In this document: piece after piece, positions 10,507 through 61,667 of the stretch
Layout of the letters: every line of letters starts with the position of its first letter
How positions within the stretch are numbered: position 1 is the first letter of the stretch
Virus record (IMG/VR): IMGVR_UViG_3300033149_003715
Location: 62,001-126,000 of that record
DNA length: 64,000 nucleotides
Origin: a virus
Strand: one strand, 5' to 3'
Position numbers and translations under genes: made by a program
Notes under the pieces: generated by a model
Seen by the model: only the letters and a program-made list of their open reading frames with translations
Told to the model about the DNA's origin: nothing
Databases searched by the model: none

Positions 10507-10986
10507 TTATATTACTTCTCTATTAGCATTTTTTAACCATGCTGGATTACGTGTTTTGAGAAAGTTCAAATAGAACATGAATGTTTTATAACCTACTTCC
10601 ATGAATTTATATAAATCAACACCAGCACGCTGTTTTTTCGCATGTCTATTTTCATCATACATTCCAGTAGGATTATAAAAACCATCTCTGCCACATTTAA
10701 TAAAATATCTATATGTATTATGACTTTTTACTGATTTAGCATACGCATTATCCAATTGATCTGCATATGTATAATTTCCATCTGCATATTCTATATCGTA
10801 TAACAGTGGAAATCCGTCTTTGTTTGGTTGACCATGTTCGTTAACTAATTCATCTTCTTGACCTTTTATTGTAAAAACTAATGTCTGTTGTACTGGCAAT
10901 TCATTTAGTTGTGCTTGTTTATTTTCATTTGGTCGCCATATTGCTTTTTCCATTTCTTCTTGACGAATTCTATGATGTTGTACCAT
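10507..10986 (-). CDS. unknown 159 aa protein
   Basis: Not recognised. Acidic N-terminal half with VFTIKGQEDELVNEHG and a tyrosine-rich middle (YDIEYADGNYTYADQ), then KYFIKCGRDGFYNPTGMYDE. Strong SD GAGGAG before the ATG. The layout (DNA-metabolism cluster, downstream of a Zn-ribbon gene) gives only context; an ssDNA-binding or processivity role cannot be supported from sequence alone. Confidence 0.7.
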   Translation of the reverse strand: MVQHHRIRQEEMEKAIWRPNENKQAQLNELPVQQTLVFTIKGQEDELVNEHGQPNKDGFPLLYDIEYADGNYTYADQLDNAYAKSVKSHNTYRYFIKCGRDGFYNPTGMYDENRHAKKQRAGVDLYKFMEVGYKTFMFYLNFLKTRNPAWLKNANREVI

Positions 10987-11212
10987 GATTATACTCCTCT
11001 TTTATTATTTGTGAAATTTGTTTAATTAGTTTCTCTACTTCTTCTTTGCAATTCTGCAAGGAATTATTAGATAGGATATATGAATGACTAATCTTTTTAA
11101 TAGGTATCCCGGATACTTTGCCGTCTGGTAAAAGTTCCATAATTTCTGCTTTAAGCAAGATAACAGCTTTGTGTGGAATTTTTTTCTGATTTTTATTTTT
11201 GTTGGTGTCCAT
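10970..11212 (-). CDS. second ORF of a probable -1 frameshift gene
   Basis: 80 codons reading in the -1 frame relative to the ORF at 11035-11442, overlapping it by 178 nt. From about codon 12 onward the product (HKAVILLKAEIMELLPDGKVSG ...) looks like normal folded coding sequence, whereas the other frame over the same bases looks like junk. It may be reached by -1 slippage on the A7 run at 11179-11185 rather than from its own ATG, for which no SD is visible. Function unknown. Confidence 0.6.
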   Translation of the reverse strand: MDTNKNKNQKKIPHKAVILLKAEIMELLPDGKVSGIPIKKISHSYILSNNSLQNCKEEVEKLIKQISQIIKEEYNHGTTS

Positions 11213-11442
11213 TTTTCTAATACTTCTTGAAGTAAGTTTCGATATTGACGTGGTATAATTGTAAAAATTTCGTCATCGCTTTCAAAGTGTATAAAATTTC
11301 CACGATCACTTAACGGTAAATCAGGTGGTATTGGTTCCTGATGTAAATAATCTTGTAACGTATATTCACTTGGACAATGCTCGTGAAGATTATCTTGAGA
11401 TATAACTATAGGATTATGTTTTTTTGTAGGAATGTTTATCAT
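11035..11442 (-). CDS. first ORF of a probable -1 frameshift gene
   Basis: 135 codons as an open frame, but only the first 87 or so look coding (acidic; FIHFESDDEIFTIIPRQYRN). After the A_AAA_AAA run the 0-frame becomes low-complexity and ends at 11035, while the -1 frame continues as plausible protein to 10970, giving a fused product of about 157 aa. Overlaps the end of the FmdB-like gene by 29 nt. No family recognised. Confidence 0.6.
   Translation of the reverse strand: MINIPTKKHNPIVISQDNLHEHCPSEYTLQDYLHQEPIPPDLPLSDRGNFIHFESDDEIFTIIPRQYRNLLQEVLEKWTPTKIKIRKKFHTKLLSCLKQKLWNFYQTAKYPGYLLKRLVIHISYLIIPCRIAKKK
11179..11185 (-). promoter_or_regulatory. A_AAA_AAA slippery heptamer, candidate -1 frameshift site
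   Basis: Seven A residues on the coding strand placed exactly in the 0-frame as agA AAA AAA ttc (codons 86-88 of the ORF starting at 11442). A -1 slip continues as att cca cac, which is the frame of the downstream ORF. A perfect small inverted repeat (GTATCC/GGATAC) lies downstream but is weak as a stimulator. A homopolymer base-calling error (one missing A) is the alternative. Confidence 0.45.
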
Positions 11443-11779
11443 GTTCTTGTTTTCTCATCCTTGTCATACCTTTTGGTAATTCTGGTTTAGGTTGAAATTT
11501 ATACTCGTTATGTTTGTAGTTAAGATAGGCTTTTTCGTCATCACTTAACCGATCTCTATTGCGTTCTGCTAATTGCCCTAAAGTAATTTGATCATCACCT
11601 TTGATTACAGAATGTGTCATTCCCGCTAAATCATCAGATAAACTTCTTTTTACTGGTTGAACTTTATGGCATTGTGGACATTGTTGTGTTTCTGAATATT
11701 CACACATATACATGAATATTGTAAATTTATGACCACATCCATTATTTTCTTTGTCGCAATAGAAAGTGTATTCTGGCAT
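11414..11779 (-). CDS. FmdB-like zinc ribbon protein
   Basis: 121 aa. The start MPEYTFYCDKENNGCGHKF and QQCPQCH form the two-knuckle zinc ribbon of the FmdB/CxxC regulatory family. The C-terminal half is charged (DRLSDDEKAYLNYKHNEYK) and ends in basic residues. Family members are small regulators of uncertain partner. SD AGGA precedes the ATG, and a good sigma70-type promoter (11812-11841) sits just upstream, so it heads the leftward replication operon. Confidence 0.8.
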   Translation of the reverse strand: MPEYTFYCDKENNGCGHKFTIFMYMCEYSETQQCPQCHKVQPVKRSLSDDLAGMTHSVIKGDDQITLGQLAERNRDRLSDDEKAYLNYKHNEYKFQPKPELPKGMTRMRKQEHDKHSYKKT

Positions 11780-11866: not shown

Positions 11867-12011
11867 ATAGCCTCCAGAATCTTACCGTTAATATTCTATA
11901 CAGCGAAAATAAACACGCATTTCAAAATAGATATATTATCACTAGTAGCGGGTATGGGTCAAAAACAATGTTTTTTACGTAACTTTAGGATTGGTAAGGA
12001 GTTATATTTTT
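11867..12011. repeat. conserved non-coding element E1, copy A
   Basis: About 145 bp between the RNR stop and the promoter at 11.84 kb, clearly similar along its whole length to 52468-52613. Shared blocks include GAATCTTACC, AATATTCTATACAGC and TTTTTTACGTAA. A short stem (TAACT ... AGTTA on the + strand) keeps pairing although its bases differ from copy B (TAAGTC ... GACTTA), a compensatory change. No protein frame is preserved on the gene strand. Probably a structured RNA or cis element; its strand is unresolved. Confidence 0.6.
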
Positions 12012-12012
12012 T

Positions 12013-15000
12013 TCATCTAATTTCACAGGCTTTACCAGAACATTCGGATGTAGCATCAAAATTGGTATTATCCTGTTCCTCAATCATTTTGGTATAATCT
12101 ACTGCTATTAATTTTTCTTGAATGTCACAATATAATTTCCAGTTGTGTACATCTTTTAGGCAATATGTTAATTTTTTATAATTACCATCAAAATATTTTT
12201 CGGCAAATTTTTTAGCTTTTTCAATAAATCTCATTTTATTAGAAGCAGTAAGAAGTTGAGCATGTTTAATACCATTACTAAATATACCATTGCTTAATTT
12301 AGTACCAAATTGACTATCTAATAAAGCATCACATGCTGCCCATAAATTATTATCAAAGGCGTGTAATCCTAATTCAATGAGTCCAGAACACCAAATAGCA
12401 GCATCTCCATATTCTCTAATTATTTCTCTTGAATTTAAAACAGAAGTAAATGGTGCTTGTGGAAAATCTTTGTCACAAGTGGTAGAAACAAGTGTTATTC
12501 CCGCAAGACTGTCTTTATGATCATAAATATATTTTGCTACATCATCCCATTCATGGGGTAACACTACAATCGTATTCGACACGTTATGGGTTAACCAGGG
12601 TTTTATACACAACAATGGATTTTTACCATATTCTACCCAATTTTCTTGTGTACTTTGAACAATTTTCAGCATTTCGATAGCTGGTAGTTGATTTTTAGTT
12701 TTTGCACCATCTGGTATTTCTATAGGAAAACGAATAACTTGATCTGTATCTGTTGCCGAATTTAAACTTGGTTCACATGCCTGTGGATTATGTTGTTTGA
12801 AAAACTGAAACGATGTTTCTAAATGATTAGCTTGTACTGTACGCAAAAATCTTTTAGAATGGTGTGGTGATATGCTAGATGAGGTACCCAAAAAACATCC
12901 AGAATTACCATCTGGCTTGATCAACGTTGTGCGAGCAGCAGCCCCAATATTAATTCTCTTGGAAATATCTTCATTTGTATCTCGTATAATATGAGCACCT
13001 TTTTGTTGTATTTGTGGGTTAAGTGTAATTTCAACGTTTTCCATCATACCAGTCATTGATACTCCAATTAAATATTCTTGTTCAATAATTTTTTGAGATA
13101 TTTTACCAAGATATCCAGCATCAGTAAAACCAGCTTGTAGTGTTCCTATAATTGCTGCTGCTTTACAACGATTATAAAAATCTTCTTCATTTCGCAAATT
13201 ACTACAATTAATAGTGCTTAAATTACATACTGCCCAACCGGAATACTGTCTATATCTTGGGTACATGCCTACTTCACCACATGGGTTGATAACCATTTCC
13301 GTTGAATCCGTCCACAAAAACCCTGGATCGCCAAATTCTTTCGTATATTGAATAATTTTTTCAAAATCTTTAAACGTTGTAGAATCTCTTAAAAGAACAA
13401 TTGAATTGTTTGCTCGTGCTCTTTGTGGATTTTCCTTATACCATTGACCAGTCTTACACTTTATCATTTCTTCGTCGTTGTGACTAAATAAACTTAAATA
13501 TGATGAGTTATGTGTAAGCACTCCATCAGCATAAAAACAATGATTTTTTTCTACCTCAAGATCGTATACATCTTTTATGATATTAGTTTCTTCAACTTTT
13601 TGCACTATGGCAGGAATGAAATTATTTATACCTAGTTTTTGTGCTTGTGTGTATGAAATGTAATTTTTATCACCCCAAATTTTACACTTGTCTTTACTTG
13701 TTGTAGCTAATGTGCGAGGAAATACCAATTCATCTTCTATTTTATTCCATTTATAGATAGTATAATACATTGAAGCTCTAACACAATACTTTTTAAGTAA
13801 TTTAGCAACTTTGTCATCAAACACAGGAGAAACTGTTCTAACTGTATATTTGGTAAGTTTATTTTCCTTATTTGGGTATTGTGTACTTAATTTTGTTGGA
13901 ATACCTAAAGATGAATATAAAATTTGAATATCCCGAGCAAAAGAATGATATCTTGTAGATACTAAACATAATTGTTTATGTTGTCTACTTGTTTGATGAT
14001 ATATTTGATCACTTGCATCTAATACTCCAGCCAAAAACATCAATTTAATCTTCGGTTTTGCCTCAAAAATACATTGTGGTACTACAATTGTTTGACTAGG
14101 TTGCTTAAAGTGAGTTAAAAAATATTCAGCGACTTGATATTGTTCATATTCCTGTATATGTTTCTTTGTATATATTGAATCATCAGTTAAAATATATCCA
14201 AATAGCCATAATGTGTCTTTATTGAGTTTTATTTTTGGTAACTTAAATTTTCGACCACGGCATACATCTTTATTTAAAATTAAGGTATGTTGTGGTTGTA
14301 GTTGAGATGTTGGTATCCACTGAATATCTCCATACATATTTTTTGCTACTGCCCACACATGTTCTTGCGTAGAATATAATTCCCCCAAATTAGTAGTAAT
14401 CTTAATAAGCTTCCTTTTTCCGTTGTACCATTTATTTGTTACTTTTCGGTATCCATTATTTGTTTTTACCAAATCCCCGATTTTAACATCTTGAATAAGT
14501 TTATATCCATATTTCGTATAAATTTTAGTATTTTTTGGTAAACATCGTCTTTGTCCACCACTTAACACCATATCTGAAATATAGCATATAATATCGTGAG
14601 CGTCGATTGGTTTTAGTTTTTTTTGGTTATTTGTTATACACCTGTCTAACAAATTTTGAATATTTTCCAAGGCTTTTTTTAATGGTGCTGGTCCGGGGGC
14701 TTTTCCAGTACCAGAACTTAAATACGATCCTTCTGGTCTAATGTGGGAAAAATCAAATTTAACATTACACATATAATAGTCTGGGAATACTGGATCTTCA
14801 AAATATGATGAAAGCAAAACCCCAACAGCATCTGCCCATCCCTCAATAGTATCTGGAATAATATATGTTTTTTCTTTAATTTTAGATTTATCTGCTATAT
14901 CTTGGGGGAGTTTAGCAAATTCTGGTAATTGTTTGATATGATGTTTTTGTATAGAAATACCACAACCAGCACCAACTAACAACATCCACGCAATTTCCTG

Positions 15001-15327
15001 AAAAACTCTTAATCTATCACAGTATGAAGCACTACAATTATAACAACGCATATTTTTCTTGAGCATTGATTGTCCGGCATGTTGTAAACATCTTTGACTA
15101 CCCAATACTCTTTTTTGTTTCATTAAACGATATGCCCATTTAATTTCTGTTTTTAATTTTGGATCTTGTTCAAAAAATGGAGCATATTTTACCAACATCA
15201 TATCAAGTACACGTGCTATTGCTTCCTCCCAAGTTTCACGACGTTTTTTGTCTGGTAACCAACGAGCATATTTAGATACAAAAGTGTATTTTTGCAATTC
15301 CTTTAAGGGTGTAAGAGGTTTGGTCAT
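12013..15327 (-). CDS. class II (B12-dependent) ribonucleotide reductase containing an intein
   Basis: 1104 codons; after removal of the intein (residues 262-607) the protein is 758 aa, close to monomeric RTPR. The start YARWLPDKKRRETWEEAIARV is RTPR-like. The thiyl-radical site is N681-P-C683-G-E685, and the C-terminal redox pair is C1096-x4-C1101 (ECSGKAC), as in Lactobacillus RTPR. It reduces ribonucleotides using adenosylcobalamin, so the infected cell must supply B12. No separate activator or small subunit gene is seen. SD AGGA precedes the ATG. Supplies dNTPs to the replisome downstream. Confidence 0.92.
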   Translation of the reverse strand: MTKPLTPLKELQKYTFVSKYARWLPDKKRRETWEEAIARVLDMMLVKYAPFFEQDPKLKTEIKWAYRLMKQKRVLGSQRCLQHAGQSMLKKNMRCYNCSASYCDRLRVFQEIAWMLLVGAGCGISIQKHHIKQLPEFAKLPQDIADKSKIKEKTYIIPDTIEGWADAVGVLLSSYFEDPVFPDYYMCNVKFDFSHIRPEGSYLSSGTGKAPGPAPLKKALENIQNLLDRCITNNQKKLKPIDAHDIICYISDMVLSGGQRRCLPKNTKIYTKYGYKLIQDVKIGDLVKTNNGYRKVTNKWYNGKRKLIKITTNLGELYSTQEHVWAVAKNMYGDIQWIPTSQLQPQHTLILNKDVCRGRKFKLPKIKLNKDTLWLFGYILTDDSIYTKKHIQEYEQYQVAEYFLTHFKQPSQTIVVPQCIFEAKPKIKLMFLAGVLDASDQIYHQTSRQHKQLCLVSTRYHSFARDIQILYSSLGIPTKLSTQYPNKENKLTKYTVRTVSPVFDDKVAKLLKKYCVRASMYYTIYKWNKIEDELVFPRTLATTSKDKCKIWGDKNYISYTQAQKLGINNFIPAIVQKVEETNIIKDVYDLEVEKNHCFYADGVLTHNSSYLSLFSHNDEEMIKCKTGQWYKENPQRARANNSIVLLRDSTTFKDFEKIIQYTKEFGDPGFLWTDSTEMVINPCGEVGMYPRYRQYSGWAVCNLSTINCSNLRNEEDFYNRCKAAAIIGTLQAGFTDAGYLGKISQKIIEQEYLIGVSMTGMMENVEITLNPQIQQKGAHIIRDTNEDISKRINIGAAARTTLIKPDGNSGCFLGTSSSISPHHSKRFLRTVQANHLETSFQFFKQHNPQACEPSLNSATDTDQVIRFPIEIPDGAKTKNQLPAIEMLKIVQSTQENWVEYGKNPLLCIKPWLTHNVSNTIVVLPHEWDDVAKYIYDHKDSLAGITLVSTTCDKDFPQAPFTSVLNSREIIREYGDAAIWCSGLIELGLHAFDNNLWAACDALLDSQFGTKLSNGIFSNGIKHAQLLTASNKMRFIEKAKKFAEKYFDGNYKKLTYCLKDVHNWKLYCDIQEKLIAVDYTKMIEEQDNTNFDATSECSGKACEIR
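13507..14544 (-). mobile_element. intein with degenerate LAGLIDADG endonuclease, in RNR
   Basis: 346 aa in-frame insertion (residues 262-607). Block A begins CLPKNTKIYT with the splicing Cys; block B-like LGELYSTQEHVWAV has the penultimate-type His; block F is VYDLEVEKNHCFYADG; block G ends VLTHN and is followed by Ser+1. So splicing residues look intact. The two LAGLIDADG motifs are LFGYILTDDS (acidic residue kept) and FLAGVLDASD (Ser at the usual Asp position), hinting that homing activity is weakened or lost. The insertion lies after GGQRR, before SSYLSL of the reductase. Confidence 0.92.
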
Positions 15328-24932: not shown

Positions 24933-25004
24933 AGCCGGTTGTAGGATTTGAACCCACTTTCTCTGATTACAAATCAGTTGCTCTACCAATTGAGCTAAAC
25001 CGGC
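24933..25004 (-). tRNA. tRNA-Thr (anticodon UGU)
   Basis: 72 nt cloverleaf: acceptor GCCGGTT/AACCGGC, D-arm GCTC/GAGC, anticodon loop TTTGTAA giving UGU, T-arm GTGGG-TTCAAAT-CCTAC. The anticodon stem has one A-A mismatch at its base. CCA is not encoded. Very like E. coli tRNA-Thr(UGU). Reads ACA, which suits an AT-rich genome. It is the only tRNA I see in the window. Confidence 0.95.
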
Positions 25005-47879: not shown

Positions 47880-48338
47880 CTATTTATTATAAGGTTTAGC
47901 TGAATATACTTCTTTAATTAATTTTACTGCATCTACAAACAATGTTCCATTCGGTGGTCTTATTAAATGCACTAAGTGTTTGAACCTTTTTTTATATTTT
48001 CTTAATTTCCACGCTTTGATAACAGTTTGCCAATTATTCCTTAAACTATCAGCAACAATACCATTTTTTGATGGATTGTGTACTTCACACATCCAAATAG
48101 TCCCTCTATCAAAAATTGAAAAAGTAGAAAATTGATATTTAAGATTCATATTTGTATGTAAAAATTCCATAGCATTTTCAATAGTATCGAATACAAACAA
48201 TTTAGAACCTTTTATGGTTGGATATGTCCATTCGTTGATTTCATATTTGAGTATACGACCGTATCGGTGTTTTAATCCTCTATGGAAAATAGATAGCAAA
48301 CCATTATCACGAATGACAAGCTTATATGCTATAAACAT
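47880..48338 (-). CDS. family-1 (YKVV/VKL) paralogue
   Basis: 152 aa. First in a family of about ten copies in this region. Shared features: AYKLV-type first strand, ILKYEINEWTYPTIKGSKLFVFDTI (in part), WMCEVHNPSKNG and a final PPNGTLFVDAVKLIKEVY. No function known. This copy is the longest and most divergent. Confidence 0.75.
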   Translation of the reverse strand: MFIAYKLVIRDNGLLSIFHRGLKHRYGRILKYEINEWTYPTIKGSKLFVFDTIENAMEFLHTNMNLKYQFSTFSIFDRGTIWMCEVHNPSKNGIVADSLRNNWQTVIKAWKLRKYKKRFKHLVHLIRPPNGTLFVDAVKLIKEVYSAKPYNK

Positions 48339-48377
48339 AATTATATAATTATTTTATATTTTAGAATACTGCTTACA

Positions 48378-48758
48378 TTAAGAACAACGATTGTGAATCA
48401 ATTTATAAAAATTCTCCGGATTGTGGCAAAACTTAGTGTAAATTTCTTTACGAATTTTTTCCCTGTTGGTATTTAATTTCCATAGCAAATACAACACCAA
48501 ATCACTTTCGCTAATATGTTCTAGTTGACATAGTGGACAATATTTTTCTGGAATTTCGTATCTCCAATCATTAGAGTTTTTCAACTGTTCCATAACATTC
48601 TTATTAAGATAACTTTCGTTAAAAACATGTCCTCTTACACACTCTACCATCCATGCATCTTCAAGGGTAAAATCCCATCCTGATACAGTTTGTCCTGAAA
48701 TATCACATGTAAAACTTGAACTACTTGAATTACTGACAAAACCAGTTCTAATTTTCAT
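48378..48758 (-). CDS. protein with N-terminal GFVSNSSSSSF motif
   Basis: 126 aa starting MKIRTGFVSNSSSSSFTCD. This serine-run N-terminus recurs on otherwise unrelated phage and bacterial proteins, suggesting a targeting or processing signal. The body has Cys pairs (ECVRGH, KYCPLCQ) that could bind zinc. AGGAGG SD. Function unknown. Confidence 0.72.
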   Translation of the reverse strand: MKIRTGFVSNSSSSSFTCDISGQTVSGWDFTLEDAWMVECVRGHVFNESYLNKNVMEQLKNSNDWRYEIPEKYCPLCQLEHISESDLVLYLLWKLNTNREKIRKEIYTKFCHNPENFYKLIHNRCS

Positions 48759-48769
48759 TGTTTTTCCTC

Positions 48770-49051
48770 CTATTTGTTGTTCTTACAATTATTAATTTTT
48801 TCTGCAATCTCACGAGCCTTAATTAGTGCTTGCCCTAATAAACTCCTTGATGTTTGTTGACATTGACTGTATCCTTCTCCACAGTAAATAATTTTTATTC
48901 CTCGTTTTTGAGCAACCTTTCTATTCAAAACTTTAAGTTTCTCCACATTATCAGGTACTACTTGAACTGCTACATACACATCTGGTCCACCAAATTGATG
49001 AGCACTTGATCCTCTTGAACGTTGTTTGCGAATTTCTACGTATGCTTTCAT
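48770..49051 (-). CDS. unknown 93 aa protein
   Basis: Start taken at ATG 49051; an upstream ATG at 49063 overlaps the previous gene by 16 nt. Contains HQFGGPDVYVAVQVVPDNVE and IIYCGEGYSQCQQTSRSLLGQA, the latter a pattern I have seen in phage mini-proteins. Function unknown. Confidence 0.65.
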   Translation of the reverse strand: MKAYVEIRKQRSRGSSAHQFGGPDVYVAVQVVPDNVEKLKVLNRKVAQKRGIKIIYCGEGYSQCQQTSRSLLGQALIKAREIAEKINNCKNNK

Positions 49052-49635
49052 AATTTTTTCCATTTATTACCAGAATACGGTTTTGCTAAAGTATTTTTAT
49101 CAAGGGATGGACAATACGTAAATTCTTTGTTGTTAATTTCTTCTTCTAACGGATGATATGTTTGCGTAAAATCTTCATCATATGATGCTTTAATCAAAAA
49201 ACACCCAGCTAATTCAGCACATTTTACTAATAAGTCTTCGGTTAATGCTACACCTCCATGAAATGTATATCTATTTTGAAAAACTTTAACATCATTTGTA
49301 AGATCAATACAATCACCACATGAAAAACCTAAAGCACTTTTAAATCCTATTTTATTTATATGCCCAGCACGACTAGACCACGGTCCTTTTAAACATTTTT
49401 GTACAATTTGATTATCTTCTTGAAGTTTAATATTAAATGTATGTCCGCCAAATCCTCGTCCAGGGCCTTTATAATAGTAAAAACTAACAAAACCATCTTT
49501 TTCTGCATAATACGTATTATTTTTTTCTGTGAATATCATATCCGATAATGCAGGAAGTTTGTCCACTAAAACCTCAAAAATTGGATCACTATCAAAATAA
49601 TGCATCCAATTAACACGCGATTTCAAAATTTTCAC
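49048..49635 (-). CDS. unknown 195 aa phage protein
   Basis: GTG start overlapping the stop of a decayed family-1 copy (TAGTG). Contains FYYYKGPGRGFGGHTFNIKL and LKGPWSSRAGHINKIG, blocks familiar from phage proteins of unknown role, and a Cys-rich centre (GFSCGDCIDL). Beta-rich. Confidence 0.7.
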   Translation of the reverse strand: MKILKSRVNWMHYFDSDPIFEVLVDKLPALSDMIFTEKNNTYYAEKDGFVSFYYYKGPGRGFGGHTFNIKLQEDNQIVQKCLKGPWSSRAGHINKIGFKSALGFSCGDCIDLTNDVKVFQNRYTFHGGVALTEDLLVKCAELAGCFLIKASYDEDFTQTYHPLEEEINNKEFTYCPSLDKNTLAKPYSGNKWKKL

Positions 49636-49900
49636 TATTCTATCCTTTTAATTAATTTTACCGCTTTAGCTGCAACAGTACCTTTAGGAATACATACAAT
49701 ACCACCGTAATCTATTACTTTTTTCTTTTGTTTCTTTTTGTATAAAATTTCTATTAGAGACTCTAAATCAAAGGTAAATGGTATTTTTCTAAATCTACCT
49801 TTACCCTATAGGTAATAGCAGCTTCTCGTATACTATGCTCGTAATATGTAGAACATACTGACTTCATTTCCTGCGTAACAACTTTATAATAGATTTTCAT
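49635..49900 (-). pseudogene. decayed family-1 paralogue
   Basis: Starts MKIYYKVVTQEMKSVCSTYY and ends IPKGTVAAKAVKLIKRIE, the family-1 ends, but the middle is deleted and the two parts are in different frames, the switch lying near the GATTTAGAG stretch at about 49765. Explains the 280 bp gap between 49.63 and 49.92 kb. Confidence 0.8.
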
Positions 49901-49914
49901 AATTATTCACTTAA

Positions 49915-50313
49915 TTAGCAGTTCAAGTATACTCGTTTTAATAGTTTAACTGCGGATACAAACACTGTTCCTTTTGGTACAGCCTTTTTTTCAAAGAACT
50001 TTTTATGTTGTTTTTGTTTTTTTCTTATCAAGTTCCATTTTCTTAAAAATACTGATGCTGAATGTATACTACCAATATAAGGTACAAACACACTTGAACA
50101 AGAAGGATTCTCTATCATACAATTATAAACATGTGATCCAAAATAACAAAATTTACGTGCATCTTTTAAATTATTAAAGACCATTAATTTTGTACCCTCA
50201 ACCTTAGGATATACCCACTCTCCAATCTCGTATTTAACTACAAATTCTTTCGGCAAATGTTTATAAAGATACGATTTTAGATCAAATGAAACAACTTTAT
50301 AATAGGTTTTCAT
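49915..50313 (-). CDS. family-1 paralogue
   Basis: 132 aa. MKTYYKVVSFDLKSYLYKHLP, VVKYEIGEWVYPKVEGTKLMVF, YNCMIENPSCSSVFVPYIG and KKAVPKGTVFVSAVKLLKRVY (each in part). Closest to the copy at 51331-51750. Role unknown. Confidence 0.78.
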   Translation of the reverse strand: MKTYYKVVSFDLKSYLYKHLPKEFVVKYEIGEWVYPKVEGTKLMVFNNLKDARKFCYFGSHVYNCMIENPSCSSVFVPYIGSIHSASVFLRKWNLIRKKQKQHKKFFEKKAVPKGTVFVSAVKLLKRVYLNC

Positions 50314-50315
50314 AG

Positions 50316-50657
50316 TTATTCACCTAAAATTTGGGGGGAATTTTGAAGACCGTGAGAACGATCTAACTGTCCAAGTACGTTAGCAGTAGCAGTTACAATA
50401 CCATTTCCAAATTGTTGGTTGTACGCATTTTTAATATCTTCATTAGGTTCTAATTGAAATAAGATATGATTTTTGGATATTACGACTTTTTTTTCGTTGG
50501 AGAATGGCATCCACGGTCTCATTGCTATACCTATTTTACCAGTTGCATCTTGACCAACAGACATAGCTACCGGATTTATTAAACATACTTGATCTTTACA
50601 TGATTCGATTTGTGCTATAATTTCTTCACCATAAATTAATTTAATGTATTTAACCAT
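50316..50657 (-). CDS. small beta-barrel-like phage protein
   Basis: 113 aa. VKYIKLIYGEEIIAQIESC, then NPVAMSVGQ, IAMRPWMPFSNEKKVVISKNHI is a pattern common in phages, suggesting a small Sm/SH3-like barrel; the fold is inferred. AAGGAG SD. Two bases before a family-1 gene. Confidence 0.7.
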   Translation of the reverse strand: MVKYIKLIYGEEIIAQIESCKDQVCLINPVAMSVGQDATGKIGIAMRPWMPFSNEKKVVISKNHILFQLEPNEDIKNAYNQQFGNGIVTATANVLGQLDRSHGLQNSPQILGE

Positions 50658-50668
50658 AGTTCAACTCC

Positions 50669-51064
50669 TTAACTACTTTGTAACAACCATTTTTTAAATG
50701 GTTCATAGGGGTTTTTGGTACTATACCATAACTGTGTACAATTAAAATCTAGTAACAATTTTTGGCAACATTTACATGGTTTAGACATGCCCAACATACC
50801 ATTGGCCATGATCCTAATGTTAACAAATGTAAATTTAGGTAACAATGAGACAGGATATGGAAAATTTTGAATAGCTTTTAATTCAGAATGAATGTTATTA
50901 AATCTATAACCATATCGACCTGCCAGCGGATGTGTCTTAAAAGATAAATTATACCCTACGGAAATCACTCTTTTCTTAAGCAAAATAAAAGTAAAATGTT
51001 TTTGACGTGCATCGGGCAAATCTATCATTTTATAGGATAGTTTGATCAGTTTGTCAAATTTCAT
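50669..51064 (-). CDS. cytidine-deaminase-like zinc protein
   Basis: 131 aa with NNIHSELKAI (HxE) and SKPCKCCQKLL (PCxxC), the zinc and proton-shuttle motifs of the cytidine/deoxycytidylate deaminase fold. Different from the dCMP deaminase at 15.6 kb. Substrate may be a nucleoside, a nucleotide or RNA. Confidence 0.8.
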   Translation of the reverse strand: MKFDKLIKLSYKMIDLPDARQKHFTFILLKKRVISVGYNLSFKTHPLAGRYGYRFNNIHSELKAIQNFPYPVSLLPKFTFVNIRIMANGMLGMSKPCKCCQKLLLDFNCTQLWYSTKNPYEPFKKWLLQSS

Positions 51065-51081
51065 AACACTAAGTTTTATGA

Positions 51082-51330
51082 TTATGAAGGATTAAGATCG
51101 TAATATGGACAGTTTCGATTATTTGCCAACAAGTGTTTACGAAAATCTTGTGTAATTTGATGTTCCCATATATTTTTAAAACTGCTTACATCAAAAATAT
51201 TAATGCCAAATTTCCATTCCTTTATTCCTTCACAAAAAGAACATGCGTAACAATTTCCTAAACAGTTAATATACATTGAAAACAATGTAGATTCACATGG
51301 TTCACATAATTGTTGTTTTTGTATAAAATC
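51082..51330 (-). CDS. orphan SPASM-like domain, probable gene fragment
   Basis: About 80 codons open from just after the TAA of the family-1 gene, in the same frame; no ATG at the start (the first ATG is SMYINC, after a TTG). Sequence QQLCEPCESTLFSMYINCLG, then NCYACSFCEG and NRNCPYYDLNP matches the C-terminal SPASM-type cluster domain of phage radical SAM proteins I know. The radical SAM core is absent, so it is probably a remnant. Confidence 0.6.
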   Translation of the reverse strand, partial: DFIQKQQLCEPCESTLFSMYINCLGNCYACSFCEGIKEWKFGINIFDVSSFKNIWEHQITQDFRKHLLANNRNCPYYDLNPS

Positions 51331-51750
51331 TTAATTGTTCAATTCTGTTAATTGTAGTGATTTGTCTACTGGTTCTAGTAATTTAATTCCGTCCACAAAT
51401 ACTGTTCCTTTTGGTACAGCTTTTCTTTTAAAGAACTTTTTATGCTGTTTTTGTTTTTTTTGTAAGGAAAACCACTTCTCCAAAAACTGTGATGGAAAAT
51501 GTAGATTACCAACATGAGGCACAAATACACCTGAATAAGAAGGATTCTTGACTAAACAAGTATAAATATAGTTAATATCAAAACAGAAGTTATATGCATT
51601 TCTAAGACTATTAAAAACCATTAGCTTCGTACCTTTAATTTTAGGGTATACCCATTTTCCAACTTTGTATTGTACAACAAACTCTTTCGGTAAAAGATAA
51701 TAGATTCGTGATTTTAATCTATATGAAACAACTTTGTAATAAATTTTCAT
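51331..51750 (-). CDS. family-1 paralogue
   Basis: 139 aa from ATG 51750 (TTG at 51756 is less likely). KIYYKVVSYRLKSRIYYLLP, VVQYKVGKWVYPKIKGTKLMV, YTCLVKNPSYSGVFVPHVG, KAVPKGTVFVDGIKLLEPV. Very close to 49915-50313, so a recent duplicate. Confidence 0.78.
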   Translation of the reverse strand: MKIYYKVVSYRLKSRIYYLLPKEFVVQYKVGKWVYPKIKGTKLMVFNSLRNAYNFCFDINYIYTCLVKNPSYSGVFVPHVGNLHFPSQFLEKWFSLQKKQKQHKKFFKRKAVPKGTVFVDGIKLLEPVDKSLQLTELNN

Positions 51751-51835
51751 TCTCAAAATTTCCCAAGCGGAATGTTTACTATTAACATATCATTTAAAAA
51801 TACCTTGATACATTACCATTGAAATAAAACAATTA

Positions 51836-52051
51836 TTAAGTAGGGCTCGAATTTGCTTTAATTGTTTCTAAATGATATGTATTATCTTCTGTCCAAATAC
51901 TAACAGACATACCCCAAAGTTTTGATAGGAGTGATGCATACTGTACAGCTTCGTGATAACAAGAAAACTTCCTATTTTCGTCAAACATAGGCATACTTTT
52001 ATCACGATACTTTTTATAGTTTTTTCCGTAAAAATTGTATACTTCGGCCAC
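51836..52051 (-). CDS. unknown 71 aa protein
   Basis: GTG start with AAAGGAG 6 nt upstream. AEVYNFYGKNYKKYRDKSMPM then SCYHEAVQYASLLSKLWGMSVSI. The second half resembles a small alpha/beta module. Function unknown. Confidence 0.62.
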   Translation of the reverse strand: MAEVYNFYGKNYKKYRDKSMPMFDENRKFSCYHEAVQYASLLSKLWGMSVSIWTEDNTYHLETIKANSSPT

Positions 52052-52077
52052 GATAATCTCCTTTATATCACTTATAT

Positions 52078-52263
52078 TTAATTAAGTGTACGCGAGATTT
52101 CTTTTAGTAGTTGTTCTGACCTATCAATTTTTCCATTCGCTTGGTTGATTTTAATAGCTTGACCCTGTTTAACAGCTTGCTTTCTGGTTGGAAAACATTT
52201 ACCAGATTGACCGAATTTCCATCCTAATTTTCCATTAGGAAGTTTGCATCGCATAATAGGCAT
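52078..52263 (-). CDS. small conserved phage protein
   Basis: 61 aa. MPIMRCKLPNGKLGWKFGQSG then KCFPTRKQAVKQGQAIKINQA is a widely seen phage mini-protein pattern, sometimes near structural genes. First gene after the 780 bp non-coding block; its leader contains an AGGTAG/CTACCT hairpin near 52305-52324. Confidence 0.75.
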   Translation of the reverse strand: MPIMRCKLPNGKLGWKFGQSGKCFPTRKQAVKQGQAIKINQANGKIDRSEQLLKEISRTLN

Positions 52264-52467
52264 TTCTCATTCATTTTACAAAATTCGTAGAAATTGAATC
52301 TTGAAGGTAGCCTTTCATCTACCTAAAAATAAATACATTACTATGTTAATTAACTTATAATACACCCTTTAAGATTTTCACGAAGCTTTCAAGGCTTACC
52401 TTATAAGTTTGTCGTCACTAAACTATCCTGTTTACCCACTACTACCTTGGTTCTGATTGGCACCAAA

Positions 52468-52613
52468 ATAGCTCCCAGAATCTTACCATCAATATTCTAT
52501 ACAGCAAAAATGAATAACTTAAGACTAATAGGTATCAAACTACCAATAGAAGCAATGGGCCAAAAACTATCTTTTTTACGTAAGTCTAAAACTGACAAGG
52601 ACTTATATTTTTA
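52468..52613. repeat. conserved non-coding element E1, copy B
   Basis: Partner of 11867-12011. Within a 780 bp gap with no supported gene on the minus strand. The + strand has a 64-codon frame here, but copy A has no matching open frame from an ATG, so coding is unlikely. Stem TAAGTC/GACTTA covaries with TAACT/AGTTA of copy A. Confidence 0.6.
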
Positions 52614-52756
52614 TCAGCTATTATTATGTAAAACTTTGTAAAAAATTCAAAAAAATCCCAGAATTATTGGCCATATTTCTGAGTTCAGCTATATAATAAA
52701 ATAGATACTATTTGTGAAGAATTGAGTTAATTATTTAAAGGCCGTATATTACGAAG

Positions 52757-52948
52757 GGCCAGTAAGTAAAAATACTAAATTTTGGATGTCTTAAGTATAC
52801 CTTTTTCTATTGGTTAGTCTAACTTAAGTTTTTTAGTTTTCCCCGAAAAGTTCGTAAAGGGAAGAAAGTTTAATGACTAAAAAAGATCTCACAATAACCA
52901 ATAACCTTTAGTAGTTTTACGTGTTTGGTTGTACCTCAGTAAAGTACG
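52757..52948. repeat. conserved non-coding element E2, copy B
   Basis: Partner of 44812-45008, lying 143 bp from E1 copy B. Contains GGTTAGTCTAAC and a + strand self-complement TATTGGTTA/TAACCAATA. No sigma70-like promoter as good as at 45.1 kb is visible upstream, so it may be transcribed from the gene at 53397. Gap stretches 52264-52467 and 52949-53043 hold only AT-rich DNA with small hairpins. Confidence 0.6.
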
Positions 52949-53043
52949 GAACCCCAGAAATAAAGATTCAAGAATTGTTATTAATAGTTAAATAGGTTTC
53001 TATATGATTCTATTGTTACTATAGATTCTAATTGTATAATACA

Positions 53044-53397
53044 TTAATTAGACACAATAACAATTAAATTATTTTCTTCTGGATAAATACAACATTTTTT
53101 ATTCAGTGTGATTTTATTTAAAATTTTACATGTACGTGTAAGATTGTTATATGGCTTAGTTGGTAATTTAAGAAATGGAACCTCTATAAGGTTTTTTATG
53201 TACTGTTTACTAAATCTGCGATAACAAGATATTTCAAAATTCCATCCTTCTATATAATTTGCTGTTGTATTGGTAATATATATTAATCTATGGGTACCTG
53301 GTTTTGATCCAGAATAATACTCAAAGCTAACAACATTACCTTTAAATAGAATCATAGTAGATAATATAGTATCAAGATTGGATTGTTTTTGATTCAT
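53044..53397 (-). CDS. unknown 117 aa protein
   Basis: Beta-rich start (FKGNVVSFEYYSGSKPGTHRLIYI) suggests a small barrel; then YCRRF-like basic part and a C-terminal CCIYPEENNLIVIV strand. No SD within normal distance. Function unknown. Confidence 0.66.
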   Translation of the reverse strand: MNQKQSNLDTILSTMILFKGNVVSFEYYSGSKPGTHRLIYITNTTANYIEGWNFEISCYRRFSKQYIKNLIEVPFLKLPTKPYNNLTRTCKILNKITLNKKCCIYPEENNLIVIVSN

Positions 53398-53421
53398 TGT
53401 TATGATTTGTTAGAGTAAACT

Positions 53422-53461
53422 CCAACCCCGAGTGGAATAATTAATATAAACTCGGGGCTGG
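53422..53461. other. GC-rich hairpin between genes
   Basis: CCCCGAGT / ACTCGGGG with flanking CCA/TGG extends to about 10 bp, loop 16 nt, conspicuous in AT-rich DNA. It follows the HTH gene (stop 53477) on the minus strand, but no T-run follows in that direction, so it may stabilise the mRNA end or act as a weak terminator. Confidence 0.5.
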
Positions 53462-53476
53462 ATATGAATTTTTTAT

Positions 53477-53803
53477 TTATTTAGTATTACTGTTTATATC
53501 AATACCATACTTTTTACTTAATTCTTCCAAATTACACGAATCTGGAAGATCTAATGATTCTGCTAATTCTTTTAGGTTTAAAGTAATTTCTTTTGACTTC
53601 TTACGTCTTGGAAGTTTTTTGAGTTCTATTCCTTTCTTTCTGTATGACTTGATTTTTTGTTGTAATGAAGACGGTTTGATTTTTAACAATTCTGCTGCAT
53701 CTTCAACAGTTTCTGATGTTTGTACAGCAAAAATAAATTTAACTAAATCTTGTGGTACTCCATTGTCTAATGCTTGTTTAATCGCGTTTTGTACTTCTGA
53801 CAT
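53477..53803 (-). CDS. HTH (Fis-like) DNA-binding protein
   Basis: 108 aa. TVEDAAELLKIKPSSLQQKIKSY is a Fis/HTH_8-type helix-turn-helix, followed by a basic patch LKKLPRRKKSKE and a second small helical pair. Likely a regulator. GGAGG SD. Confidence 0.75.
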   Translation of the reverse strand: MSEVQNAIKQALDNGVPQDLVKFIFAVQTSETVEDAAELLKIKPSSLQQKIKSYRKKGIELKKLPRRKKSKEITLNLKELAESLDLPDSCNLEELSKKYGIDINSNTK

Positions 53804-53867
53804 AATTCCTCCAATTTCATATTAATTCTTATGATAACCCTACACTAATTAATATTTTACCTCCTTT

Positions 53868-54020
53868 CTAATTGTAAAATTCTTTTAAAAATCGTGTTTG
53901 ATCTTGACGTGTTTTTTGCCTTCTAGGTTTACGTGGTGATTTTGGTATTTTATTTTCTATATTTTTTTTGTTACGTTTGTTGCGGTATTTTTGTTTGTTT
54001 TCGTACTTATTTAAACGCAT
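53868..54020 (-). CDS. 50 aa very basic mini-protein
   Basis: Short ORF, Lys/Arg/Asn/Gln-rich (NKQKYRNKRNKKN ... SPRKPRRQKTRQDQ) ending RFLKEFYN. It fits neatly between neighbours but has no clear SD; low-complexity composition makes it uncertain. Could bind nucleic acid. Confidence 0.45.
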   Translation of the reverse strand: MRLNKYENKQKYRNKRNKKNIENKIPKSPRKPRRQKTRQDQTRFLKEFYN

Positions 54021-54035
54021 TACTATATTTATCTA

Positions 54036-54416
54036 TTAAAATTTAGATGGTGGTAAGACCATTATCTTATCTGTGATAATACAACAGTACATTTTACCAT
54101 CAATGTCTTCTATACCTTCTGCAATAATCTTTGTGAAAAGTACCTGACATATGATTTCATCAGATTCTTTGTATCTTTGTGCTGCTTTTTTGCTTGTCCA
54201 TACGTGAAACCCACATTCATATAATTTATTATCTTCTGCTCGGATTTTATTATAACCTGATTGATTTTTTAGCCATTTCAGAAATGGTTTATTGTCATTA
54301 TACAATGTCGAGAAAGTTTTATCTGTTTTACTTAATTCGACAACTTTATATCCTGTATAATATGTTCCATCTTTTTTGATTTTTGTTTTAGTAGATGTAA
54401 CTTTCGAGAGACACAT
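54036..54416 (-). CDS. family-2 (MCLTKVT) paralogue
   Basis: 126 aa from ATG 54416 with AAGGAG 7 nt upstream (a longer frame to 54506 overlaps the neighbour). Family pattern: MCLSKVTS start, YTGYKVVELSKT, PFLKWLK, GFHVWTSKKAAQRYK, VLFTKIIAEGIEDI, CIITDKIMVLPP. Function unknown. Six copies lie between 54.0 and 57.6 kb. Confidence 0.78.
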   Translation of the reverse strand: MCLSKVTSTKTKIKKDGTYYTGYKVVELSKTDKTFSTLYNDNKPFLKWLKNQSGYNKIRAEDNKLYECGFHVWTSKKAAQRYKESDEIICQVLFTKIIAEGIEDIDGKMYCCIITDKIMVLPPSKF

Positions 54417-54420
54417 TTTT

Positions 54421-54834
54421 TTACTCCTTTTTAAGTACTTTATAGTTTGGAGGTAAAACAAAGATTTTGTCGGTAACAACGCAACGATAATTATAATCAA
54501 TTTCATGTTTATTAAGATTATAGATGTCTTCTATACCTTCCGCAATAATTTTTGTGAAGAGTACATAACATATTATTTCTCCATCTTGTTTGTATTTTTG
54601 TGCTGCTTTTTTGCTTGTCCATACGTGAAATCCATTTTTGTATAATTTGTTATCTTTTGCTTCGATTTCATTATTTGATCGACTCTTTAGCCATTTTAAG
54701 AATGATCTATTAACATTGTATAATGATGAAAAAGTTTTACCTGTTTTGCTTAAAACAACTACTTTGTATCCTATATAACAGGATCCATCTTTTTTAGTTT
54801 TTGTTTTAGTAGATGTAACTCTTGTAAGACACAT
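54421..54834 (-). CDS. family-2 paralogue
   Basis: 137 aa. MCLTRVTSTKTKTKKDGSCY, GYKVVVLSKTGKTF, GFHVWTSKKAAQKYKQDGE, TKIIAEGIEDIYNLNKHEI, CVVTDKIFVLPP. Same SD and leader bases as the copy at 54416, and it is nearest to 57116-57613. Confidence 0.78.
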   Translation of the reverse strand: MCLTRVTSTKTKTKKDGSCYIGYKVVVLSKTGKTFSSLYNVNRSFLKWLKSRSNNEIEAKDNKLYKNGFHVWTSKKAAQKYKQDGEIICYVLFTKIIAEGIEDIYNLNKHEIDYNYRCVVTDKIFVLPPNYKVLKKE

Positions 54835-54865
54835 TTTTTACTCCTTTTTAAGTACTTTATAGTAA

Positions 54866-55252
54866 TTAGTATCCAATTGGTGGCAAAACATACATCTGAT
54901 CGGTAACAACGCAACGATATTCTTTATTACCAATATTTTCTATACCTTCCGCAATAATTTTTGTGAAGAGTACTTGGCATATTACCTCATCAGGATGATC
55001 TTTCCATTCTTCTGCTGCTTTTTTGTTTGTCCATATATGAAATCCAAGTTTATACAATTTACTATCATCTGCTATTATATAACCTGTTGCTTTTTTTGCT
55101 CTATTTAACCATTTCAAGAATGGTCTGTTTTTATTGTAAAATGTCGAAAAAGTTTTACCTGTTTCACTTAATTCTACTACTTTGTATCCTATATAGTACA
55201 ATCCATCTTTTTTTATTTTTTCTTTAGCTGATATAACCTTTGTAAGACACAT
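54866..55252 (-). CDS. family-2 paralogue
   Basis: 128 aa. MCLTKVISAKEKIKKDGLYY, GYKVVELSETGKTF, LGFHIWTNKKAAEEWKD, VLFTKIIAEGIENI, CVVTDQMYVLPP. AGGAG SD. Directly follows the DUF932 gene. Confidence 0.78.
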   Translation of the reverse strand: MCLTKVISAKEKIKKDGLYYIGYKVVELSETGKTFSTFYNKNRPFLKWLNRAKKATGYIIADDSKLYKLGFHIWTNKKAAEEWKDHPDEVICQVLFTKIIAEGIENIGNKEYRCVVTDQMYVLPPIGY

Positions 55253-55263
55253 TTTTATTTCTC

Positions 55264-56238
55264 CTAATTAGCCATTTCTAGTGCAATTGTTAATGCTTTG
55301 CGATTAATTTGAGCATTTTGCCCAAACCATAAACTATTTAAACGACGATCCTGATTTTTTCCAAAATTATAATTTAAATATTCGTTTACTGCGTTATATG
55401 CACCCCAATATGTACCTTTGACATGTGGAATATTAATACCTATACCTGTTTCCATTTTTTGTGTGATTGCATCAATTTTGTTACTTAGTCTTGTAGAAAG
55501 TTTATATTCTGGCTGTTCTGGATCAATACCTAAGACAACTTTAACATATTTTCTTAGATCGCGTTGGTTAATTGACTTGTTTGCCAAATATTTATATTGT
55601 TCTATGGTTGATTCAAAAGTAGCATTGAACGTATTAATAGTTTGTCTTACTTGTTCCAAATTGTATGTAAGTTGTGATGTATGACGAATCCTGATAGATT
55701 CACCGTGTTTTAGTGCCAACGACAAAGTATTCCAGCAAACAGTTCTAATAGGTGTAAGTGTAACCCGAACTGACATTGTGCCGTCGTGTGAATTTGAAAG
55801 CATTAAGTATTTTGCTATATCATCTCCTTTTACTACTTCAGAATTTATACCTTTAAGTTTAGCCATTACCCATACTTTAGTTCCACCACATAATGAACCT
55901 GCTGTTTCTAGTTCGCATGATCCTGAATCCAAAAACGGTTGAAACCATTCAAACGCTTCTATGTTTTGTAGTGGTGTGTATTGTGGGCCGACTATACCCA
56001 ATACATTATCTTTGTCTGTACGTACAACAGCTTTATGCTTGATTTCAGTAACTTGTTGTTGTAGGTAATGGTCAATTTTATCCGCTATAACCAAAGGTTT
56101 TAGTGCAACTGACCAATCCAAGCCGGCTGCAATTATACCACGTTTAACGTCAATTCTTTCATTTTGCGGGATAATATTACCTTGTCTGTGCCAAGGAACT
56201 AACCCGCGAGACATCATTGTTTCAACAAAACTAGACAT
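55264..56238 (-). CDS. DUF932 protein
   Basis: 324 aa. The full DUF932 pattern is present: GLDWSVALKPL, HKAVVRTDKDNVLGIVG, YTPLQNIEAFEWFQPFLDSG, TLTPIRTVCWNTL and GTYWGAYNAVNEYLNY. Widespread in phages and plasmids, function unproven. Embedded in the family-2 array, starting inside the end of the next copy. AAGGAG SD. Confidence 0.9.
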   Translation of the reverse strand: MSSFVETMMSRGLVPWHRQGNIIPQNERIDVKRGIIAAGLDWSVALKPLVIADKIDHYLQQQVTEIKHKAVVRTDKDNVLGIVGPQYTPLQNIEAFEWFQPFLDSGSCELETAGSLCGGTKVWVMAKLKGINSEVVKGDDIAKYLMLSNSHDGTMSVRVTLTPIRTVCWNTLSLALKHGESIRIRHTSQLTYNLEQVRQTINTFNATFESTIEQYKYLANKSINQRDLRKYVKVVLGIDPEQPEYKLSTRLSNKIDAITQKMETGIGINIPHVKGTYWGAYNAVNEYLNYNFGKNQDRRLNSLWFGQNAQINRKALTIALEMAN

Positions 56239-56629
56239 TGCTTTCTCCTTGATTTTCGTTGTGAACTACGTACATTTTTTTGGCAACTACGCATCCTTTG
56301 TCTTCTTGGTATCCTTCTGCTACCACTCTACGGTAATATACTTTTACAACAATATCGTTATCAATATAAGGTTCTAAGTATCTTATTGCATCTTTTTTTT
56401 CTTTAAAAATATGAAATCCTGCTGGATATTGTTTACCATCGTCTGCTGTGATTTTGGTGGTTGGTCTTTTGTAGCACACAATCCATTTGTTAAATGGTTT
56501 TTCTTTTCTAAACCATAAAAACTGAAACTTTTTATAATTACTTGATATAACAACAACTTTATATCCAACACCATATTTTTTTGGAGGAAAGTTTTTCTTT
56601 TCAAGAGATGTAATTTTTGTAAGACACAT
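56231..56629 (-). CDS. family-2 paralogue, subtype b
   Basis: 132 aa. MCLTKITSLEKKNFPPKKYG, GYKVVVISSNYKKFQFLWF, PFNKWIVCYKRPTTKI, YPAGFHIFKEKKDAIRYLE, VVAKKMYVV. Forms a subtype with 56660-57100 in which the N-terminal linker is KNFP rather than KTKTKKDG. Confidence 0.78.
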   Translation of the reverse strand: MCLTKITSLEKKNFPPKKYGVGYKVVVISSNYKKFQFLWFRKEKPFNKWIVCYKRPTTKITADDGKQYPAGFHIFKEKKDAIRYLEPYIDNDIVVKVYYRRVVAEGYQEDKGCVVAKKMYVVHNENQGESNV

Positions 56630-56659
56630 AATAGTTTTTCTGTTTTCTGTTCTCTGGAT

Positions 56660-57100
56660 TTATACGTATAAGAATGGTTTATTAAGATTGATGATTGTTG
56701 TTTTGCGTAATTCTACCCCTTTATTATTTTTATCGTAAACTACGTATATTTTTTTAGCGATTACGCATTTAGCTCCATCTTGAAATCCTCGTGCTACTAT
56801 TCTGCGATATCGCACTTGTACAACAATTTCGTCGAAATGAGGTGTTTTATATTGTTCTGCATCCGATCTTTTTTCAAAAATATGAAATCCGGCTGGATAA
56901 TTCCAACCATTTAATGCCATAATTTTTGTATTCGGTCTTTTATAACATATAATCCACTTATTAAACGGTCTTTCTCCCTCAAACCATAAAAATTGAAATT
57001 TTCCCTTTTTAGTTGATAAGCGAATTACCTTATACCCGATACCATACTGCTTTCGCGGAAAATTTTCTTTTCTGACTAATGTAACTTTTGTAAGACACAC
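56660..57100 (-). CDS. family-2 paralogue, subtype b
   Basis: 146 aa from a GTG codon (MCLTKVTLVRKENFPRKQYG). GYKVIRLSTKKGKFQFLWF, PFNKWIICYKRPNTKI, YPAGFHIFEKRSDAEQY, CVIAKKIYVVYD and a short extra tail. AGGA SD. Confidence 0.76.
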   Translation of the reverse strand: MCLTKVTLVRKENFPRKQYGIGYKVIRLSTKKGKFQFLWFEGERPFNKWIICYKRPNTKIMALNGWNYPAGFHIFEKRSDAEQYKTPHFDEIVVQVRYRRIVARGFQDGAKCVIAKKIYVVYDKNNKGVELRKTTIINLNKPFLYV

Positions 57101-57115
57101 TTTTGTTTTTCCTAT

Positions 57116-57613
57116 TTATTTACTTTTAGATGGAGGTAAAACAAAAATTTTATCGGTAACAACGCAACGATAACCATGTTCAATTTCATGTTTATTAAGA
57201 TTATAGATGTCTTCTACACCCTCTGCAATAATTTTTGTGAAGAGTACTTGACATATTATTTCTCCATATCGTTTGTATCTTTGTGCTGCTTTTTTACTTG
57301 TCCATATGTGAAATCCATTTTTGTATAATTTGCCATCTTTTGCTTTAATTTCATCAACAGTTATATCCATATGTAGTCGATTTAATCCACTCTTTAGCCA
57401 TTTTAAGAATGGTTTATTAAGATTATATAATGATGAAAAAAAAGGTTTATCTGTTTTTATCCTATTTAACCATTTCAAGAATGGTCTGTGTTTGTTAAAA
57501 AATGTCGAAAAAGTTTTACCTGTTTTACTTAATTTTACTACTTTGTATCCTGTATAGTACAATCCGTCTTTTTTAGTTTTTGTTTTAGTAGATGTAACTC
57601 TTGTAAGATTCAT
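57116..57613 (-). CDS. family-2 paralogue with internal duplication
   Basis: 165 aa. Starts MNLTRVTSTKTKTKKDGLYY (MNL instead of MCL). The PFLKWL segment occurs twice (about residues 39-45 and 66-72, separated by KTDKPFFSSLYNLN), showing an in-frame internal duplication. Ends CVVTDKIFVLPP. AAGGAA SD. Confidence 0.78.
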   Translation of the reverse strand: MNLTRVTSTKTKTKKDGLYYTGYKVVKLSKTGKTFSTFFNKHRPFLKWLNRIKTDKPFFSSLYNLNKPFLKWLKSGLNRLHMDITVDEIKAKDGKLYKNGFHIWTSKKAAQRYKRYGEIICQVLFTKIIAEGVEDIYNLNKHEIEHGYRCVVTDKIFVLPPSKSK

Positions 57614-57623
57614 AATGGTTTCC

Positions 57624-58340
57624 TTATTTTTTTGGTTGAGTACCGTGTTTCAATAAAGCAAAATCCCCCATTTCCGGAGAATAAATTGCATGACAATCAT
57701 TATAATCTACAGGAAGCTTTAATTTATGTGCTTCTATAACATTGTTGACAATTTTAACAGATGAAAAATACCTGTAATGGATATCGTTTTGTAATAACCA
57801 TATTAAATGATCATGTGTACCTCCGTATGATAATACCAGTCTAAGATTATTTGGTAATTTGCCTTGTTTATTGATGTAGTTGACTATGTATGGAAATGCT
57901 TTTGTATATCCGTAAAAAATGACATTCTTATGGTTTTTCACAAAGGAAACGAAACCATTAAAGTATGTTTGACTAAAGAAATCGCCGCTTACATGCATAC
58001 GACATATACCACAATCAGAAGGAAAAGAAGACTCGAAAAGAGTTGTGATTTGTTTTGCTGATTTGCATTGTCGTAATTTTTTATAGTTTTGATGTCGTTG
58101 TTTCCTTACGTTTTGGTACATCAGTTCCTGTTGTGTTGCATAACACCTTATTTTAGTGTAACGACCATCTTTAATTTTTACACAATTGTCATTTGTTGTT
58201 ACAACGCATGAACGACATATTTTAGCAAACCTACATGAATAACCAGCCGGCAAAGATAACGAGTAAATTTTCTTTTGTTGTAGTTTTTCGGTTTTTACTA
58301 ATTTTTTATTATTAATACCTTGGCCAAATTTCAACATCAT
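57624..58340 (-). CDS. GP88-like protein
   Basis: 238 aa. YSLSLPAGYSCRFAKICRSC and RCYATQQELM match the Gene product 88 family (mycobacteriophage gp88-like), in which Cys residues probably hold a metal or Fe-S cluster. Further motifs: RMHVSGDFFSQTYF, VLSYGG, ECHAIYS-like DCHAIYSPE. Role unknown. Confidence 0.78.
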   Translation of the reverse strand: MMLKFGQGINNKKLVKTEKLQQKKIYSLSLPAGYSCRFAKICRSCVVTTNDNCVKIKDGRYTKIRCYATQQELMYQNVRKQRHQNYKKLRQCKSAKQITTLFESSFPSDCGICRMHVSGDFFSQTYFNGFVSFVKNHKNVIFYGYTKAFPYIVNYINKQGKLPNNLRLVLSYGGTHDHLIWLLQNDIHYRYFSSVKIVNNVIEAHKLKLPVDYNDCHAIYSPEMGDFALLKHGTQPKK

Positions 58341-58365
58341 ATCATTACTTGTATGTTTCTTGTAA

Positions 58366-58797
58366 TTACTTTAAATTTTTCAATAATTGTGACGCCGAAC
58401 ATAATTTTTCGATTAATTTTACTTTTTTGACAGCAATAGTACCAGCAGGGATTAACGTACCACGCAAACTCCTTCTTTTTTGTTTCTTTAATTTTATATT
58501 ATATTGAAGTGTTGATAAACTTCCAAATAATGGAATTACTTTCATGTAGCCTTTCATGTACGCTATATATACATCCATAAACTGTAAATATTTATTATTC
58601 TTATAATTCTCATAATAAGTTCGAAGAAATTCACATGTATTTCGTAAATTATCAAAAACAAACAACGCTGAATGTTTAAGTTTTGGTTCAATCCATTTTC
58701 CAATTTTGTATTGTATGCCGATGTCAGTAAAATCATTATTGAATATGGTAGAAAGTGATTTCAAATCTTTCGTAACAATTTTGTAACATATTTCCAT
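58366..58797 (-). CDS. family-1 paralogue
   Basis: 143 aa. EICYKIVTKDLKSLSTIFN, GIQYKIGKWIEPKLKHSALF, VFDNLRNTCEFL and PAGTIAVKKVKLIEKL. The central CEV-NP motif is altered (DVYIAYMKGYMKVIP). AGGAAAG SD. Confidence 0.74.
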   Translation of the reverse strand: MEICYKIVTKDLKSLSTIFNNDFTDIGIQYKIGKWIEPKLKHSALFVFDNLRNTCEFLRTYYENYKNNKYLQFMDVYIAYMKGYMKVIPLFGSLSTLQYNIKLKKQKRRSLRGTLIPAGTIAVKKVKLIEKLCSASQLLKNLK

Positions 58798-58811
58798 TTT
58801 TATCTTTCCTG

Positions 58812-59291: not shown

Positions 59292-59303
59292 TAAAATAAT
59301 CCT

Positions 59304-60719: not shown

Positions 60720-60752
60720 TTGTTATCTCCATCAGTTCAATCTGATTAGACA

Positions 60753-61663: not shown

Positions 61664-61667
61664 TGAA

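Follow-up and report, generated by a model that had tools for sequence, protein, structure and literature searches.

A frame switch at or just before an A7 run in a small gene of a phage replication cluster most likely has an ordinary cause

The window analysed here is a 64-kb stretch of a 144-kb IMG/VR phage record, and the gene under study lies on its minus strand. In the 0-frame, ORF A (11035-11442, minus) encodes 135 aa and contains an A7 run (11179-11185, minus) that is read as A_AAA_AAA, the surrounding 0-frame codons being ATC AGA AAA AAA TTC. The -1 frame stays open between about 11272 and a stop at 10970, and within it ORF B (10970-11212, minus) encodes 80 aa from its own ATG at 11212, 27 nt upstream of the A7 run. 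A -1 step at A7 joins ORF A to the frame of ORF B and gives a product of 157 aa. The upstream neighbour is a Zn-ribbon gene (11414-11779, minus; 121 aa), which matches Pfam Zn_ribbon_8 below the curated cut-off and is kept in relatives by synteny. The downstream neighbour (10507-10986, minus; 159 aa), likewise kept in relatives, shares its first 17 nt, including the ATG, with the end of ORF B and has a strong Shine-Dalgarno sequence that lies inside ORF B.

To compare the frames, we trained a phase-specific Markov model on 68 other minus-strand genes, with training and control genes taken from the 64-kb window only. Before and through A7, the 0-frame scored +22.0 bits against -35.8 bits for the -1 frame, and after A7 the -1 frame scored +4.2 bits against -18.0 bits for the 0-frame. 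As such, residues 1-88 of ORF A look coding and its 47-residue tail carries no coding signal. A single switch of frame gained 24.7, 19.2 and 15.5 bits with Markov models of orders 2, 3 and 4, respectively; across 136 control tests on the window's other genes, the highest gains were 3.7, 4.1 and -2.6 bits. The frame switch at or just before A7 is real and far above chance. Its best position is 11199-11203 with a 95% interval of about 11216-11174, and since this interval holds both the A7 run and the ATG at 11212, the switch could lie at either. The original prediction, which proposed a programmed -1 frameshift at this site, had placed A7 in the exact 0-frame register of a slippery heptamer, which the codon reading confirmed; its further statements, that a -1 slip gives a join of about 157 aa with better protein quality in the -1 half and that the 0-frame tail is junk-like, agree with the codon statistics.

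Searching frame paths across the whole window revealed four switches, of which the three others have no homopolymer nearby. The switch at 8152 is an overlap of two genes, and those at 21313 and 30958 are probably gene overlaps as well. In-register A_AAA_AAA occurs in 31 copies in 57 kb of ORFs in the window, two of them within the A7 gene itself, and an in-register heptamer alone means little in this AT-rich phage.

The apparent switch could be a sequencing or assembly error, in which case the true run would be A8 and the ORF continuous; homopolymers are a usual site of such errors. A second contig, IMGVR_UViG_3300033141_001475 (L003; 7.6 kb), was assembled separately and differs from the window by 5 substitutions in 7620 nt, and its A7 run is identical, so that the run is more than an artefact of a single contig. 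When IMG/VR was scanned for the two flanks of the run at a spacing of 5 to 11 bases, L003 alone was found, and thus no contig with another run length. Moreover, no other A-run of the window coincides with a frame switch. On the other side, the two contigs, which agree on A7 while differing at 5 sites, may share a sample, and L003 has, at 14576 in its reductase gene, a stop codon that is probably an error or else a rare variant. Sequence error is unlikely, and we give a miscounted A8 run very little weight.

Searches with the two halves returned few relatives. Neither half gave anything of note in Pfam and PHROGs, and GenBank phage records contained no match to the joined protein, the 159-aa neighbour or a member of the gene family described below. 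IMG/VR single-protein scans with both halves and with RecA recovered only the near-identical contig L003. As such, ORF A is an orphan: outside L003, none of Pfam, PHROGs, GenBank phages and IMG/VR yielded a relative. Phages KLEP7, RHph_I1_18 and Mel-JY01 have relatives of the reductase but lack the gene. Scans with reductase alignments yielded 149 loci of related uncultured phages, the nearest reductases being 50-57% identical. The order reductase, Zn-ribbon gene, 159-aa gene, HTH-like gene, 136-aa gene, RecA, small nuclease-like gene, 164-aa gene and DnaB is kept in many of them.

The slot of ORF B, flanked by the Zn-ribbon and 159-aa genes, is occupied in many relatives by an unnamed family of 91-177 aa; in others, a member lies elsewhere in the cluster. 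A family scan gave 58 distinct members, all of them continuous ORFs and none seen split. Members were present in 89 of 135 cluster-bearing loci, a count biased upwards by including loci fetched with the family itself, and the gene is dispensable, as the other 46 have no member. The structure model of one long member (L147) was of fair quality (pLDDT 80) and shows two strands and a long helix; its N-part is helical, as in the long members generally, and a fold search with it gave no confident match. The family, spread across loci L011-L159, is without a PHROG, GenBank-phage or fold match. As a by-product of this work, a small gene family that has no name thus emerges from a slot which a large group of uncultured phages conserves in its replication cluster.

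When the window was compared with this slot family, the -1-frame ORF was the best of 328 window frames, while the 0-frame tail matched nothing in the family. The likeness to the family profiles was weak at 8.5-12.5 bits, and 11 to 21 of 3000 shuffles reached the score, which fell to 1 of 3000 when two short relatives were added to the profile. The C-half is closest to the short relative L036 (0 of 2000 shuffles reached the score). The -1 half is probably a relative of the slot-family C-domain; we grade the kinship no higher because the likeness is weak in bits, and the shared slot helps. Like the family (L012, L013, L023, L036, L110, L147 and others), the window protein has a replication-cluster position and, probably, a C-domain starting with P[HY], which forms two strands and a helix in the model of a relative, but its relatives are continuous, it is remote from them, and its N-half is different. 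We had considered that the N-half might correspond to the helical N-part of the long members and dropped this assignment, as 2490 of 3000 shuffles reached the score. Since the N-half is unlike the N-part of the family, no known relative has the fused form. The structure of ORF B predicted from its single sequence was poor (pLDDT 61).

The relatives closest to the C-half stand alone as short ORFs, with 73 aa in L035, 82 aa in L036 and 76 aa in L038, which start 5-14 codons before the P[HY] motif. ORF B, read from its own ATG, is of about the same size and starts 12 codons before this motif. It is thus possible that the locus holds two separate genes: ORF B, as a short slot-family member, and ORF A, an unrelated gene of 135 aa that overlaps ORF B by 178 nt, perhaps after loss of its original stop. 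The nearest likeness of the C-half to L036, the ATG of ORF B within the switch interval and the lack of kinship between the N-half and the slot family are all consistent with two genes. The original prediction had named homologues encoded as two separate proteins as an outcome that would speak against it, and the closest relatives of the C-half lean that way, since the three short ORFs stand alone. However, the Shine-Dalgarno sequence of ORF B is weak, at -1.1 kcal/mol compared with -4.2 to -8.6 kcal/mol for the Zn-ribbon gene, ORF A, the 159-aa gene and the HTH gene, while RecA and two other genes are likewise without one. ORF A terminates 175 nt downstream of the ORF B ATG, too far for ORF B to be coupled to its stop, and the short relatives, which are missing the N-part of the long forms, begin instead at the stop of the Zn-ribbon gene. 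The tail of ORF A within the overlap is also the part that has no coding signal, and no equally long overlap is found among the frame switches of the window; the gene list used to compare Shine-Dalgarno sequences had been filtered of overlaps of at least 60 nt. Two overlapping genes rank close behind the reading that we prefer below, and we regard them as a possible but tentative explanation.

Programmed -1 ribosomal frameshifting at A_AAA_AAA would yield a 157-aa fusion beside the 135-aa 0-frame product. The register of the heptamer is exact, the frame switch is real, the A7 run is kept in two contigs, both halves are free of stops, and in IS1 and IS3 family elements A_AAA_AAA is one of the two most frequent heptamers (PMC4066793). 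The -1 shifts of IS1 and IS3 family transposases (A_AAA_AAG, A_AAA_AAA and A_AAA_AAC) resemble the window in having a heptamer in 0-frame register and an overlapping -1 ORF, but the window gene is not a transposase, has neither a stimulator nor conservation, and its -1 ORF has its own ATG. We looked for stimulatory elements on both sides of the run. Folding, in which pseudoknots were outside the model, gave no downstream stem-loop (z -0.92 for 61 nt downstream and z +1.0 for 161 nt around the site), and direct reading of CACCAACAAAAATAAAAATCAG revealed no Shine-Dalgarno-like stimulator just upstream of A7. In E. coli, heptamers without a stimulator do not exceed about 10 times a background of 0.055% (PMC4066793). 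Neither the slip site nor the two-frame layout is conserved in relatives: in the homologue comparison that the original prediction had proposed as a check, the relatives of the C-half were continuous or stand-alone ORFs, with no break seen. Considering also that 31 such heptamers occur in window ORFs and that ORF B has its own ATG in the switch interval, the part of the original prediction that called the shift programmed was not upheld, and we consider this explanation rather unlikely. A lineage-specific form of recoding, in which an unstimulated A_AAA_AAA slip would make a minor 157-aa fusion adding the slot-family domain to the 135-aa protein, in a nucleotide-metabolism and replication cluster and not in a tail or transposase gene, is unlikely as well. 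If the shift were programmed, it would be a case of recoding outside the usual settings of mobile elements and tail genes. As things stand, the locus calls for caution, as in AT-rich phages it is common for an in-register A7 to lie near a frame break, and a break close to an internal ATG could reflect an indel or two overlapping genes.

The A-run at the switch could also let RNA polymerase slip, so that an extra A in some transcripts would restore the fused frame. Shorter runs may slip in some bacteria, but in most the prone length is about 9 (PMC1088944), and the run here is only A7, below the roughly 9 or more A or T that would mark a slippage gene by this threshold. In addition, the window has 62 plus-strand T-runs of at least 7, equivalent to A-runs for minus-strand genes, nearly all without a change of frame. 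Slippage of the polymerase is the least probable of the explanations weighed here.

Taken all together, the frame switch most likely has an ordinary cause, and the reading that we favour, at somewhat less than an even chance, is that a gene of about 157 codons, composed of an orphan N-half and a slot-family C-domain, is out of frame by one base, the simplest cause being a homopolymer indel in the A-run. We infer that the halves were once a single ORF and that the shift is a mutation. A one-base indel would have broken the fused gene in this phage population, ribosomes would mainly yield the 135-aa protein with its junk tail, and a fused product, if made at all, would stem from weak slippage at A7 without a stimulator. 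The opposite frames preferred on the two sides of 11216-11174 are consistent with this, and so are the continuous members of the family in the same slot, the dispensability of that gene in relatives, the weak Shine-Dalgarno sequence of ORF B, the ORF A stop that is too distant for coupling and the lack of stimulators for a programmed shift. At 157 aa the joined product is of normal size, given that slot-family members span 91-177 aa. The GeneTack survey covered 1106 prokaryote genomes and predicted 207 thousand frame transitions, of which about one third were expected to fall between adjacent genes. It attributed 146 clusters to recoding and 4010 to pseudogenes, and lone non-orphan transitions are taken there as indels or errors (PMC3711429). 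By that survey, lone frame transitions are mostly indels or errors, and the window gene is like its singleton 'fs-genes' in showing a lone, unconserved transition in a small gene of unknown function (PMC3711429). In contrast with indel-broken 'fs-genes', its N-half is an orphan, so that an intact fused relative was not found. Two further points speak against a broken fused gene: the N-half does not resemble the slot-family N-part, and the nearest relatives of the C-half are short genes that stand alone. Furthermore, stop codons have not accumulated in either half, which means that the break would have to be recent or both parts still in use; this counts against an indel.

Several other features of the window were noted. 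Within the ribonucleotide reductase gene (12013-15327, minus), a segment of about 346 aa, continuous with the reading frame, resembles an intein, and in L003 the stop codon at 14576 of this gene replaces TCA. Between the reductase and Zn-ribbon genes lie about 155 nt of non-coding sequence (11867-12019) that recur 40 kb away at 52468-52620 with 74% identity; this sequence had no Rfam match, related loci other than L003 had no copy, and it may serve as a promoter region or an origin-like element, or encode a small RNA. The window has a single tRNA-Thr (TGT) gene at 24933-25004 (minus), and the region of about 47880-63824 (minus) encodes a run of many small paralogous proteins with YKVV-like starts (MKIYYKVVS, MCLTKVTS).
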